In this document: positions 6,383-36,021 of the stretch, piece by piece
Position numbering within the stretch: the first letter of the stretch is position 1
How the letters are laid out: each line of letters begins with the position of its first letter
NCBI GenBank assembly: GCA_031271785.1
Contig: JAISUZ010000109.1
Span: 1 to 37,265 of the forward strand
Origin: Fibrobacter sp.
GTDB lineage: Bacteria > Fibrobacterota > Fibrobacteria > Fibrobacterales > Fibrobacteraceae
Direction of reading: 5' to 3'
Length of the DNA: 37,265 nucleotides
Translations under genes and position numbers: made by a program
The notes under the pieces: model-generated
What the model was told of the DNA's origin: nothing
Seen by the model: only the letters and a program-made list of their open reading frames with translations
Databases searched by the model: none

Positions 6383-6482
6383 AGGGGGTAGCGAAAAACG
6401 GCGCGCAGAACCCGGCGACTGAAAGAAGCCGGTGAAGGTTCTGCGAAATTCGCCGGTTGAAGCGAGGGGGATACTTCCCCCT
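6383..6482 (-). repeat. Structured 3'-end repeat, copy A (bulged hairpin)
   Basis: Read on the minus strand this starts about 10 bases after the stop codon of the solute-binding protein gene. It has two parts. First is a GC-rich hairpin (6466-6471 with 6476-6481). Second is a bulged hairpin: outer 8-bp stem 6438-6445 with 6404-6411, 5-nt bulge, inner 5-bp stem CCGGC/GCCGG, and an 11-nt loop TTCTTTCAGTC. Copy B at 33224-33320 has the same layout, the same loop and inner stem, but a different outer stem. It may act as a terminator or 3'-UTR element. Confidence 0.8.
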
Positions 6483-31528: not shown

Positions 31529-33222
31529 TGAAACCGTTTTTCTTAATGATTTTATTTGCCGTGTTTGCCTTTGCGGAAATTCCGGCGGAGATGGAAGGGA
31601 TGGAAGCGGGTGTTCTCGGGAACGGAACGTATCTCACCACCGGCCCCACTTATACTTTTGACCGCCCTTCCCGTCAAGGCGGGATTCACAGTGCGAGCGA
31701 AGAATGGACTCCCGGAAAAACGCGCGACCGGATTCTTTTAAACCGGTTTGTACCGAATTCCTGGAATGTGCAGCCGGCGGGCGTTTGGCTTGCGACCGGA
31801 AACGAAGTCGGCGATTTAATGTATCAGTCGATCATCAATCAAGGTTACGGAGAAGGAAACCGAACGCCCATGATGGAAGTCGGTTTCAGAACGCCGAATT
31901 ATAAAGGATTTTGGGTGACGGCGCGGTTTATTCAGGCGGATCATTTTTCCACAAGCACGCTCCGGTGGCGCGACGATTGGATCGGCGATTGGGATTACGC
32001 GCTGTTCGGCGAAAACCTTCCGTTTATGAGTTCCGCTTACGCGGGCATTGGGTACGACACCCCGTTTTCCAGCGCCTCTATTCTTGCGGGCACCGAATAT
32101 TATTGGGTTTACGGAGAATCCGGCCGGTGGATTCCGGTGCATAACGAACCGCGGGTGGAATGGAATTTCAATGACCGCTTGCTTCATTTTTCGTACAACT
32201 GGGAAAAGCAACTCTACCAAAATAAAGCGGAAAATGAAAAGGGATGGCGGAGCGTGTGGAACACCACTCTTCGCTTAATGTGCGATCGCGATTGCGACGA
32301 TCCCCTGCTCTTAGGCGTCGGTTTTCATTACCGCAGCGTCAAAGATTCCGGCACCACTTATTTCGGGCTTCGCGATAACCGGGTGATTTTTCCTTTTGCG
32401 GAATTTGTGATTCGCCCATTACAGCCGCTTGAGTTTTCCGGTTTCGCCGGATGGAATCAACATGATTGGATGGTGAAAGACAGCGTGGAACTTCGCTTTG
32501 AAGCCGGCGAGTTTGTCAGGAATAAGTTCGGAATAAAAAATCATTTGGGTTCCTCGCTTAACCCGATGGGTGAAGATTATGAGTTTTTCGGAGAGGACAC
32601 GCTTCGTTTGTTCACCGATGGTTATATGCAGCTTCATCGTTTGTATTTGGATGTCGGGTATGTATCGCCGCGGCTTAAAATGGGAATTCATACGGCGGGT
32701 TGGATTGAGAAAGGCGCGGAAACTTTTGAACCGGATGCGTTTCATACGGTCTCTGCCGGCAGAGAAAAATACTCGCTTCGTACAGGGAATGTCTCGCGCA
32801 TCGACTCTTGGATTCGCGGCTTCTCCGCAGAAGCCGATGTCAAATTATGGTATCGGGAAATGTTTTCTTTCGGCGGCCGGTTCGGATTTGAGCGTATCGA
32901 CGGCGCCCGGAAACGCTTTGAAGTAGAGCCGGTGGAAAAATGGGTTCAGCTGGACGCCTCGTGGATTTTCAAAGGCGTATTTCACATAGATCATTCCTGG
33001 TTTTACCGGAGCGACGCCGCCTGGAATTTACGAACGGAAGAACCGTTTGTCGTGAAAGGCGGATGGTTTTGGAATATGAGTCTCTCGCAGCGATTCCCCG
33101 AATACAACCTCGCTTTAACCGGCACCATTTTACATGCCCTCACGGAAGACGACAAAATTCAAGTCCCCAACGGCGGTTACGACCGCACGCGATTCTTCTG
33201 CCGCATACAAAAGATGTTTTAG
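31528..33222 (+). CDS. Outer-membrane beta-barrel protein, 564 residues
   Basis: Start at ATG 31528 in a TAATG junction with the previous stop; a strong AAAGGAGG site lies about eight bases upstream and the signal peptide MKPFFLMILFAVFAFA follows. The longer frame from 31384 is antecedent overlap with the upstream gene and is not used. The mature part consists of many amphipathic strands with aromatic girdles (FWVTARFIQADHF, EYYWVYGESGRWIPVH, FSYNWEKQLYQN, WFWNMSLSQRF) and ends TRFFCRIQKMF with a C-terminal Phe, as needed for BAM recognition. No porin or receptor family was identified. Structured repeat copy B begins immediately after its stop. Confidence 0.75.
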   Translation: MKPFFLMILFAVFAFAEIPAEMEGMEAGVLGNGTYLTTGPTYTFDRPSRQGGIHSASEEWTPGKTRDRILLNRFVPNSWNVQPAGVWLATGNEVGDLMYQSIINQGYGEGNRTPMMEVGFRTPNYKGFWVTARFIQADHFSTSTLRWRDDWIGDWDYALFGENLPFMSSAYAGIGYDTPFSSASILAGTEYYWVYGESGRWIPVHNEPRVEWNFNDRLLHFSYNWEKQLYQNKAENEKGWRSVWNTTLRLMCDRDCDDPLLLGVGFHYRSVKDSGTTYFGLRDNRVIFPFAEFVIRPLQPLEFSGFAGWNQHDWMVKDSVELRFEAGEFVRNKFGIKNHLGSSLNPMGEDYEFFGEDTLRLFTDGYMQLHRLYLDVGYVSPRLKMGIHTAGWIEKGAETFEPDAFHTVSAGREKYSLRTGNVSRIDSWIRGFSAEADVKLWYREMFSFGGRFGFERIDGARKRFEVEPVEKWVQLDASWIFKGVFHIDHSWFYRSDAAWNLRTEEPFVVKGGWFWNMSLSQRFPEYNLALTGTILHALTEDDKIQVPNGGYDRTRFFCRIQKMF

Positions 33223-33223
33223 C

Positions 33224-33320
33224 GGGGGTACGTCCCCCTCGCTTCAACCCGGGTGACCGCGTTTTCTTACCCGGCTTCTTTCAGTCGCCGGAAAACGCGC
33301 CCGGTTTTCCGCTCCCCCCT
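33224..33320 (+). repeat. Structured 3'-end repeat, copy B (bulged hairpin)
   Basis: Begins directly after the stop codon. First hairpin: GGGGG 33224-33228 with CCCCC 33234-33238. Then CTCGCTTCAACC. Second hairpin: outer stem 33258-33265 (CGCGTTTT) with 33292-33299 (AAAACGCG), 5-nt bulge CTTAC, inner stem CCGGC/GCCGG (33271-33275 with 33287-33291), loop TTCTTTCAGTC. Copy A has an outer stem of CGCAGAAC/GTTCTGCG, so five of eight base pairs differ and all stay paired. Confidence 0.85.
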
Positions 33321-33338: not shown

Positions 33339-33505
33339 ACGTCATCACGAGCGATGCTCTCGCCATGACAGGAAAACGGACTGCCGCGCCTTCGGCTCGC
33401 AGTGACGGAAACCGGTTTTTTCATCCTAAAAACCGTGTCGAAAATATTCGACCCCTGCCGCCGTTATTGTCCTGTTTCAATTGTGAATCGAAATCCGAAA
33501 TCACA
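33339..33505 (+). repeat. GTCAT-type repeats and repeat G copy 2
   Basis: ACGTCATCACGAGCG...CGCCATGAC (33339-33369) and CTGCCGCGCCTTCGGCTCGCAGTGACG (33381-33407) belong to the GTCATTGCGAG-type family. At 33435-33454 TGTCGAAAATATTCGACC and its flanks are copy 2 of repeat G, with the CCTGCCGCCGTT continuation and GTTTCAATTG...AATCGAAATCCG shared with copy 1. No gene is visible. Confidence 0.65.
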
Positions 33506-33805: not shown

Positions 33806-33834
33806 TTGACATCATTTTTTCAATAAGCTAACAT
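33806..33834 (+). promoter_or_regulatory. Promoter of the B12 uptake operon
   Basis: TTGACA at 33806-33811, 17-base spacer, TAACAT at 33829-33834. The predicted transcript would start near 33841, just ahead of the cobalamin riboswitch. Unlike the other promoter-like boxes here it resembles the classical sigma-70 pattern. Confidence 0.55.
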
Positions 33835-33849
33835 TCCCATACATTTTTC

Positions 33850-34004
33850 ATGCCCTGAAAAGCCGAAACATTTTGTTTCGAGAGAATCCCGTGAAATCCG
33901 GGAGCGGTCCCGCCGCTGTAAGGGAGGACGAAACCGGCAAAAACCAATGCGGAAACGCGTGAAGGAGCCGGCAGTAGATCGATCCCCGAGCCAGAAGAAC
34001 TGTG
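33850..34004 (+). ncRNA. Cobalamin (adenosylcobalamin-type) riboswitch
   Basis: The conserved core is readable in order: GAATCCCGTGAAATCCGGGA, then GCGGTCCCGCCGCTGTAA; CCGGC paired with GCCGG around ACCAATGCGG...GTGAAGG; CCCCGAGCCAGAAGAACTG, which is the B12 box (33988-34003, consensus AGYCAGRAGACCTGCC with small changes). It lies in the leader of btuB, and the GAGAGGA ribosome site (34011-34017) follows within ten bases. Repression by translation block when B12 is bound is therefore plausible. Both btuB and the downstream lipoprotein should respond. Confidence 0.93.
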
Positions 34005-34020
34005 AAAAACGAGAGGAACA

Positions 34021-36021
34021 ATGCGAGTGACATTTATTTTGGCTGCCTTGGCAGTTTCTTTTGCGTTTGCTTCGGCGGACAGTGAACCTGATTCTGTTTT
34101 CAGAGATTTGGGTTCTTCGGATGTTCGGGCGCACACGCTTCAGAGTTTCCCTGATTTTTCCTTTTTTGAAATTCATTCCGAGGCCTGGGCCGGGAGAAAC
34201 GTTGAGATTTCCGATATTCTCGCCGAAGTGGCCGGCGTGGAATCGTATAAACAGGGCGGGATGGGTGCGTTTCAGAGCGTTTCGATCCGCGGGATCGCCG
34301 CCAAGGGAATATTAATTTGTATTGACGGCGTGCCGCTTGAGAATGCGGGCGGCGGCGCAATGAATTTGAGTTATATCGACTTGAATCAAATCGAAAAAAT
34401 CGAGATTTACAAGGGTTATATTCCGGCGCGTTTCGGCGGCAACGGAATGGGCGGCGCAATCAATTTCGTTTCCAAAAACTCCGTACAAACGAAAGGCGAG
34501 TTCGAGATCGGTTACGGGAATTTTAATACGCAAAAAATTTCCGGATTTTTTTCTGCTCCGCTCACGGACAGTCTCCGTTTTAACACTTCGCTTTCTTACC
34601 GCCGTTCCGATAATAATTTTCGGTTTTTTAACCGAAACGGAACGCCGTACAATACGGAAGACGATCGCTGGGAAGAGAGAAAGAATGCGGACTTCTCTCA
34701 AATTTCAGGAACACATTCTCTGGAGAAAATTTTTGCAAACTCAATCCTTTCGCGGTTCACGGTTTCTCATTCGGAGGAGGCCGGCGGTAACCCCGGCAGG
34801 GAAAGCAATCAAACGGTGGTCGCCGGGTTCAAAAGAAACTTTGTGCAAGGCATTTTATTCTCCGACTTTCCGCTTTTCCGCGCGCTGTCGCTTTCCGCTC
34901 AAGTTACGGCGCGCGCAGAGAAATCGAGTGCGCATTCTTATTACCCTCTGGATAAAATCGGTTACGCGCATCCCGGTTTTTTGGAATACGGCGTTTTCCA
35001 AACATCGCTTTACCCGGAAATCTCTTTGGATATTCATCCCGGCGTTTCGTGGAACGCTAACTTTTACTTCCGCGGGTTTCTGGATTATTTGGAGCCTCGC
35101 GACAGTCAAAAGATTACATCCAAATTAAAATGGGAATTGAAACGCACTTCCGGAGAAGCGGCGTTTGATTTTTCCAAAAAGTTTTCATCTTACTTTATTT
35201 GGAATGCGGATGTTTCCGCGAGATTCATCCGGGATCAATTTTACGGAGGAATTCTGCAAACACCCACGCAGCAAGATACGATTCCCGCTTCGAAAGAAAC
35301 GAACTTTTTCCCGTCTGCACGCACCGCTGCCGTCACGGCTTTTGCAAAAAGCCTTCAGGGTTTTGCTTCCGTGGGTTATTACGAAAGAGCGCCGCAAGTG
35401 ATGGAGCGTTACGGCGTTTATCAAAATGTGCTTCCGAACCCCGAACTCAAAGCGGAATCCGGATGGAATTATGAACTCGGACTGATGATCAAAACACCGT
35501 CGGAAAATCACTCCTTACAAATTTCCCTTTTTGAAACGCGTTTGAAAAACGGTATTGTCTGGTACACCGCCAATTCATTTTCAAAGCCGCTTAATTTATC
35601 GGAATCCAAAACGCAAGGCGTGGAACTGAATTTGCAAACAAAACCGTTTTCATTTTTGGAAGGCGGCATCCAAGGCTCGCTTCAAAACCCGAAGGATCTT
35701 TCGGCCGGTATTTACCGTCAAAAGCAACTCGCCGGCGAACCGCGTTATTCTTTTGCGGCAGAGACGCGCCTGTTTCTCCCCTTTCATTTGAGTTTTACCT
35801 GGAAAACGCATTACCGGAGTAAAGTTTTCAATGACCGCGCGAACAGACAAAGTATTCCGGCGGCATTCACCCATTTTTCTTCCCTTGCCTGGGAACTATT
35901 CCCCAAATCGAAAATGGAAGTTTCGGTGCAAAACATTTTAAATGAAACGCATCAAAATATTTACGCCGCCTATCCGCAGCCGGGAAGACAATTTTTCGCT
36001 TCTTTTAGCCAATGTTTTTAA
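34021..36021 (+). CDS. btuB: TonB-dependent outer-membrane receptor, BtuB-like
   Basis: 666 residues with signal peptide MRVTFILAALAVSFAFASA. Plug domain at ~55-165: ISDILAEVAGVESYKQGGMG, SVSIRGIAAKGILICIDGVPL, IDLNQIEKIEIYKGYIPARFG and GGAINFVSK. A 22-strand type barrel follows to the C-terminus, with TGRE-like SGWNYELGLMIKTP, and LNETHQNIYAAYPQPGRQFFASFSQCF as the final strands, typical of TonB receptors and ending in Phe. Substrate specificity for cobalamin is inferred from the riboswitch directly in its leader, not from the sequence of the receptor alone. GAGAGGA precedes the ATG. A propeller lipoprotein gene follows after 19 bases. Confidence 0.9.
   Translation: MRVTFILAALAVSFAFASADSEPDSVFRDLGSSDVRAHTLQSFPDFSFFEIHSEAWAGRNVEISDILAEVAGVESYKQGGMGAFQSVSIRGIAAKGILICIDGVPLENAGGGAMNLSYIDLNQIEKIEIYKGYIPARFGGNGMGGAINFVSKNSVQTKGEFEIGYGNFNTQKISGFFSAPLTDSLRFNTSLSYRRSDNNFRFFNRNGTPYNTEDDRWEERKNADFSQISGTHSLEKIFANSILSRFTVSHSEEAGGNPGRESNQTVVAGFKRNFVQGILFSDFPLFRALSLSAQVTARAEKSSAHSYYPLDKIGYAHPGFLEYGVFQTSLYPEISLDIHPGVSWNANFYFRGFLDYLEPRDSQKITSKLKWELKRTSGEAAFDFSKKFSSYFIWNADVSARFIRDQFYGGILQTPTQQDTIPASKETNFFPSARTAAVTAFAKSLQGFASVGYYERAPQVMERYGVYQNVLPNPELKAESGWNYELGLMIKTPSENHSLQISLFETRLKNGIVWYTANSFSKPLNLSESKTQGVELNLQTKPFSFLEGGIQGSLQNPKDLSAGIYRQKQLAGEPRYSFAAETRLFLPFHLSFTWKTHYRSKVFNDRANRQSIPAAFTHFSSLAWELFPKSKMEVSVQNILNETHQNIYAAYPQPGRQFFASFSQCF

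Follow-up and report, generated by a model that had tools for sequence, protein, structure and literature searches.

Palindromic elements of Rickettsia and Wolbachia are short, dispersed palindromes, many of which lie in frame within functional protein genes, where they occupy non-structured segments (PMC10969869, PMC2996958). Such in-frame elements have been described mainly in these two genera, together with one archaeal case (PMC2996958), and the Rickettsia palindromic elements (RPEs) of R. conorii carry a terminal CGTC (PMC3733652). The element analysed here, from a Fibrobacter genome, shares with RPEs its short palindromic nature, its many dispersed copies and its in-frame insertion in functional protein genes, the latter seen in Treponema and others and not in its own genome. 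It differs from them in its hosts, in its ends (GGGGG and CCCCC or AACGCCCC, with no CGTC tag), in the conserved linkers that surround a freely variable hairpin, and in its occurrence on plasmids and ssDNA phages as well; moreover, no NCBIfam RPE model matched those insert-bearing proteins that had complete match tables, the tables of several others listing just the best 25 matches. To our knowledge, the mechanism by which in-frame palindromic elements move is not known.

Other described systems offer partial parallels. REP/RAYT systems, which involve a Y1 HUH transposase, also consist of dispersed palindromes with a bulged hairpin, and the G-rich strand of the element resembles them further by a GTAG beside the hairpin foot in most copies (CGCTAC in 47 of 71 own-genome copies), which is internal rather than terminal, and not invariant. 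The element is longer (~100 bp versus 20-40 bp), and it lies inside genes in other genomes. A search for Y1_Tnp (RAYT) genes gave no match in the own genome, which is 95.5% complete, and Y1/RAYT presence showed no significant association with the element across 61 genomes, on which grounds a Y1 transposase was rejected as the mobiliser. Integron attC sites, too, are imperfect palindromes; they are recognised in the form of folded ssDNA, and their stems vary while certain extrahelical bases are fixed. The element is likewise an imperfect palindrome with variable stems that would fold as ssDNA, but reading its sequence revealed neither the attC core sites RYYYAAC/GTTRRRY nor an apparent cassette array. 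Single-strand initiation sites (PAS/ssi) and the ssDNA promoters of plasmid leading regions are hairpins as well, located on the transfer strand of plasmids or on virion strands; the element differs from them by its high chromosomal copy number and its in-gene insertions. A search of the openly accessible literature yielded no published description of the family. Taken together, our data indicate that it is probably a mobile DNA element, short, palindromic, non-autonomous and apparently selfish, working like RPEs but not one of them.

The window, that is, the whole stretch of DNA analysed (37,265 nt, contig JAISUZ010000109.1 of Fibrobacter sp.), contains two copies of the element, at 6383-6481 on the minus strand and 33224-33319 on the plus strand, in the places given by the original prediction. 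The anatomy proposed for them also held: the 11-nt loop TTCTTTCAGTC is identical in both copies, and the 8-bp stem, CGCAGAAC/GTTCTGCG in one copy and CGCGTTTT/AAAACGCG in its counterpart, remains paired at each of the five columns that change. The 5-nt bulge is present, 5' of the inner stem, and a GC-rich first hairpin (H1) forms beside the bulged second one in both copies whether they are folded as RNA or as DNA. An extra 5-bp outer stem, stem a, had been missed; it reads CCGGG/CCCGG in one copy and CGGCG/CGCCG in the other, covaries too, and is set off from stem b by a second one-sided bulge of 4-5 nt. The second hairpin (H2) is hence laid out as stem a (5 bp), a 4-5 nt bulge, stem b (9 bp), a 5-nt bulge, the apical stem CGGC/GCCG and the 11-nt loop. 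RNA folding z-scores were -2.0 for the plus copy and -4.4 for the minus copy. Both copies start shortly after a stop codon and in sense orientation, as proposed: the TAG stop at 33220-33222 precedes the plus copy at 33224 by 1 nt, while the TAA stop at 6494-6492 is followed by ~10 nt and then by the minus copy, which ends at 6481. As for the upstream genes, the solute-binding protein assigned to the minus copy was recovered (SBP_bac_5, Pfam), and the outer-membrane protein assigned to the plus copy was not, the product there being a 612-aa protein with no Pfam match. The features, read from the sequence and scored where indicated with a covariance model (R1) built from 35 copies, are as follows.

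33224-33319, plus strand: palindromic element copy 1, short form (H1 and bulged H2); R1 match of 109 bits, E 3.3e-20
33224-33238, plus strand: H1 hairpin GGGGG-TACGT-CCCCC; 90.7% of cells paired over 71 copies
33239-33248, plus strand: conserved linker TCGCTTCAAC; A33247 pairs with a T of the tail (covarying R:Y) and C33248 stands opposite T33305, forming the conserved C.T mismatch
33249-33253, plus strand: 5' arm of stem a, CCGGG, with partner CCCGG at 33300-33304; both-sided changes in 4 of 5 pairs
33258-33266, plus strand: 5' arm of stem b, CGCGTTTTC, with partner GAAAACGCG at 33291-33299; both-sided changes in 8 of 9 pairs
33267-33271, plus strand: one-sided 5-nt bulge TTACC, the site of inserts of ~16-230 nt in other copies
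33272-33290, plus strand: apical hairpin CGGC-TTCTTTCAGTC-GCCG; inner stem nearly invariant
33300-33319, plus strand: 3' arm of stem a, tail TTTTCCGCT and terminal CCCCCC
6383-6481, minus strand: palindromic element copy 2, short form; R1 match of 111.8 bits, E 8.2e-21
6466-6481, minus strand: H1 of copy 2, GGGGG-AAGTAT-CCCCC
6451-6455, minus strand: 5' arm of stem a of copy 2, CGGCG, with partner CGCCG at 6399-6403
6437-6445, minus strand: 5' arm of stem b of copy 2, CGCAGAACC, with partner at 6404-6412
6413-6431, minus strand: apical hairpin of copy 2, CGGC-TTCTTTCAGTC-GCCG

These two copies belong to a family of about 76-82 in the own genome (2.28 Mb, 112 contigs). The covariance-model search that the original prediction had recommended recovered 76 copies there at E <=0.001, so the two window hairpins are certainly more than chance; for the 17-nt core with up to three mismatches, 0.13 matches were expected by chance in the window and two exact ones were observed. 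In agreement with this, the pattern CCCCCTCGCTTCARCC gave 63 exact and 90 exact-or-near matches in the own genome, and none in the reversed control. Among the 71 own-genome copies that were aligned, 29 alleles of the stem and 21 of the loop occur in mixed combinations, and one pair of copies is identical while its flanks are unrelated. Neither target-site duplication nor flank complementarity rose above shuffled levels at the copies, none of the copies lay inside a large gene of this genome, and GC skew revealed no strand bias (22 of 50 positive); elsewhere such a bias was weak and not conclusive (64 of 160 positive, mean -0.020 ± 0.005). Regarding their surroundings, the 3' flanks of several copies (e.g. 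L005, L022, L024 and L029, and 33340-33380 in the window) share the dispersed repeats GTCATGTAATGTCATCGCGAAC and GTCATGTAAGACTTTTCAA, which places these copies in composite repeat regions.

The tip of H2 accepts other palindromes. In at least six own-genome copies the inner bulge carries inserts of ~50-210 nt that consist of a different palindromic repeat, while in foreign copies other palindromes occupy the same hairpin tip. Loci L002, L004, L025, L028, L029 and L031 of the own genome have repeats of a second palindromic family (TTCTTCGGGCATAAAAATCAGGGA ... ATCCC ... GAAGAACATGCCGG) nested in the bulge, and repeats of this family are also located just 3' of many copies of the element. At two Treponema loci (L182 and L187) the inner hairpin holds a palindrome of the type TTTCGACAAGCTCAACC / TTTCGACAGGCTCACCGG, again nested at the tip.

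Outside the source genome, 60 relatives were searched, belonging mostly to the same family and in part to other classes of the phylum, and 33 of them gave R1 matches. Inspection of other genomes disclosed a conserved frame, GGGGGAAGTCTCCCCCTCGCTYCARCC - hairpin - GTYTTCCGCTACCCCC, in which the hairpin is wholly different from copy to copy; written in full, it reads GGGGG-CCCCC-TCGCTYCARCC-any hairpin-GTYTTCCGCTA-CCCCC, with ~80 distinct, hypervariable inner hairpins. A third hairpin (H3), followed by an A-rich linker and a C run, typically AACGCCCC, is present in 114 of 145 foreign copies, and its arms are fully paired in 106 of these 114, as GC/GC, AC/GT, TA/TA or CC/GG, and covary. The own-genome short form lacks H3, and its identity with the foreign long form would rest on H1, the linkers and H2. 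A scan of named genomes with the frame pattern yielded at least 120 stretches; among the matches listed, the frame-bearing taxa were Treponema, other Spirochaetota, a termite Prevotellaceae bin, Fibrobacter, Candidatus Fibrimonadaceae, a Bacteroidales bin and Candidatus Ancillula, with from one to at least 147 copies per genome, the latter in the Prevotellaceae bin. Some of these cross-phylum hosts are metagenome bins and possibly mis-binned, and isolates and complete plasmids carry the element as well: T. ruminis and T. bryantii bear the frame, and plasmid pTS1 of T. saccharophilum a related core type. The distribution is patchy, since the exact frame occurred in only two of 198 Spirochaetota genomes sampled. 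Several loci (L266, L267, L268 and L271, in Treponema carB, and L299, L295 and L300) have other core linkers (CTGCGCCCGCACTTCG..., CTGAGTTCGAGCC...GTCTCGCCCTA) and keep the H1, CTACCC, H3 and AACGCCCC parts; with these, the family forms a larger superfamily of core types. In the Prevotellaceae bin, pairs of copies facing each other ~600 bp apart (L091, 3178-3855; L160, 3591-4247) flank AT-rich simple repeats of the TAATCACTAA type and other tandem arrays.

Many Treponema copies lie in frame within housekeeping genes (carA, carB, aroC, gltB, XPB), in either orientation. A six-frame scan detected 31 long open frames that run through an element, some of them representing one copy counted on both strands, and all ten insert-bearing proteins that were scanned (MsbA-like ABC, ECF-type ATPase, CarB twice, AroC, MMPL, HsdS, GltB, CarA and XPB) keep recognisable Pfam domains around the insert or on both sides of it. 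AroC has ~33 residues more than the solved chain 4ecd where the alignment passes from one block to the next (query 98 to 139, 4ecd 99 to 107), and in CarA ~26 extra residues stand between blocks aligned to a solved chain. One interdomain linker in the Treponema carB set (AAGWKMIRPN...GVLFSVR) holds four plus and two minus copies of different core types and one remnant, while many carB orthologues have an empty site; these copies look like independent insertions. Elements have 3.8 of six frames open versus 3.9 in shuffled sequences, which speaks against selection for open reading frames within the element; tolerance of in-frame copies thus follows from length and composition. In two Treponema/Spirochaetia bins (L122 and L153), one methyltransferase-like gene carries the same insertion in minus orientation, which suggests inheritance of the in-gene copy.

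The pairing of H2 is maintained while its sequence changes. Over the 71 aligned own-genome copies, the covariation score was 0.471, compared with 0.104 in shuffled alignments and at most 0.125 with the partner slid; 95.3% of cells were paired and 12 pairs changed on both sides. Nearly all stem changes lead from one Watson-Crick pair to another. The R:Y pair of the linker is Watson-Crick in 70 of the 71 own copies and covaries in all 156 foreign ones, for which the search pattern left both sides free. Another explanation, which we regard as a real possibility though not the likeliest one, is that this covariation is unselected, quasipalindrome correction (template switching in a long hairpin) or recombination between copies having copied one arm onto the other; such a process is compatible with a mobile element and would make the pairing uninformative on function. 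It is favoured by the excess of both-sided cells (291 versus 85 in shuffles) over one-sided ones (~5), which leaves almost no intermediates, and by the reassortment of loops and stems among copies, the loop TTCTTTCAGTC being found with 10 stem alleles and the stem CGGCG/CGCAGAACC with seven loops. In addition, one copy (L045) has mismatched arms that resemble two different alleles, as might be left by hairpin rewriting at the DNA level, through template switching or recombination. Against it, neither the fixed bulges nor the conserved C.T mismatch has been corrected, and frame and pairing are both maintained from phylum to phylum. Inversion of the hairpin tip was clear in one case (CCGCC with GTA/TAC) and is not general.

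Occurrence on plasmids and ssDNA phages raises the alternative that the element is a functional ssDNA site of these replicons, such as a single-strand initiation/primase site or an ssDNA promoter, scattered to chromosomes by horizontal transfer. Searches by blastn with a Treponema-type consensus returned 10 plasmids and six microviruses, and follow-up searches 10 plasmids, a partly different set, and eight microviruses; a stricter H1-H3 pattern matched no virus. On plasmids of Sphingomonads the element adjoins ssb, ardC/zincin-like or ParB-nuclease genes and is co-oriented with them, and all eight microvirus (Microviridae) matches share one orientation, with the G-rich strand as the gene-coding strand. 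These orientations suggest recognition as ssDNA. On inspection of the sequence, the linker mismatches on the G-rich strand are purine-purine G.A, which could allow a continuous helix and would also fit such a site. Nevertheless, this explanation alone fails to account for 80-150 chromosomal copies and for in-gene insertions in both orientations, and the microvirus matches come from only eight of 50,697 phage records, mostly close relatives, and we consider it improbable. With similar reserve, we speculate that fixed linkers and a conserved mismatch clamping any hairpin might constitute an ssDNA recognition module common to ssDNA phages, plasmid leading regions and the chromosomes of at least five phyla, spreading selfishly by means of a conserved factor of host replication or priming in place of a transposase of its own.

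The original prediction had also considered a selected RNA, either a 3'-UTR regulator, a terminator or a processed small RNA, and had proposed to judge it by placement relative to gene ends and strand. Covarying stems would be expected of a cis-acting RNA (a 3'-UTR stabiliser, terminator or sRNA precursor), and for 21 of the 49 sense copies in the own genome a stop codon lies no more than 20 nt before the start. However, with simple ORF-based gene calls, foreign copies have the upstream gene in sense in 66 cases and in antisense in 64 (47 versus 46 for the downstream gene), and even in the own genome the upstream gene is sense in 49 of 82 (p = 0.10), so that the placement of the window pair 3' of sense genes reflects a modest local tendency and no rule. 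Antisense in-frame copies within genes argue in the same direction. The T run that a terminator would carry after its hairpin is broken, reading GTCTT instead of GTTTT in 26 of 71 own copies and interrupted in 119 of 156 foreign ones. Selection on RNA pairing would tolerate G.U and hence enrich it over A.C; the mismatches in stems a and b comprise six G.T and eight A.C among ~985 cells, small numbers with no such excess, and nothing points to pairing at the RNA level. The suggested comparison with Rfam returned no family for the element, the cobalamin riboswitch being the only match in the window at the gathering threshold and on six loci at E <=0.5. A 3'-UTR regulator or terminator does not fit these data, and a cis-acting RNA appears very unlikely. 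An HDV-like ribozyme topology, raised by the TCGC motif, was dropped on inspection. The riboswitch itself (33831-34021, plus strand; RF00174, 85.4 bits) lies directly 5' of a TonB-dependent receptor gene (34021-36021), presumably encoding a BtuB-like transporter. Lastly, a MITE of a DDE transposon would likewise be small, non-coding and dispersed, but with no target-site duplication or flank complementarity, and with GGGGG/CCCCC ends and internal hairpins instead of 15-30 bp terminal inverted repeats, it is scarcely credible.

We therefore return to a mobile palindromic element, which would be the folded ssDNA substrate mentioned in the original prediction; the many copies, two of them identical in unrelated surroundings, the patchy spread across phyla and the in-frame insertions in both orientations all fit it. 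The element is dispersed in ~80 copies, its frame is common to several phyla, its stems vary yet stay paired, and its tip accepts nested palindromes. The absence of a target-site duplication, of Y1/RAYT and of any other enzyme found counts against mobility, and so do the lean of own-genome copies to the 3' side of sense genes and the fact that none lies inside a large own gene. As a working model, the plus strand would fold into H1 (GGGGG/CCCCC), a linker and the bulged H2, whose stems are free in sequence, followed by another linker and a C run at the end. The element might move as this folded ssDNA, on the lagging strand, a plasmid transfer strand or a phage strand, where a trans-acting factor could recognise it. 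Stems of H2 may be rewritten arm from arm, so that any self-complementary stem would be kept, and surviving insertions would be those between genes or in permissive protein loops, as with RPEs.

These results warn that covariation in dispersed repeats is not proof of a functional RNA. They also account for hypervariable linker segments in conserved enzymes, such as that of carB in Treponema. Overall, an RPE-like family that crosses phyla and is present in cultured Treponema, ssDNA phages and mobilizable plasmids would provide a tractable system for finding the mechanism.
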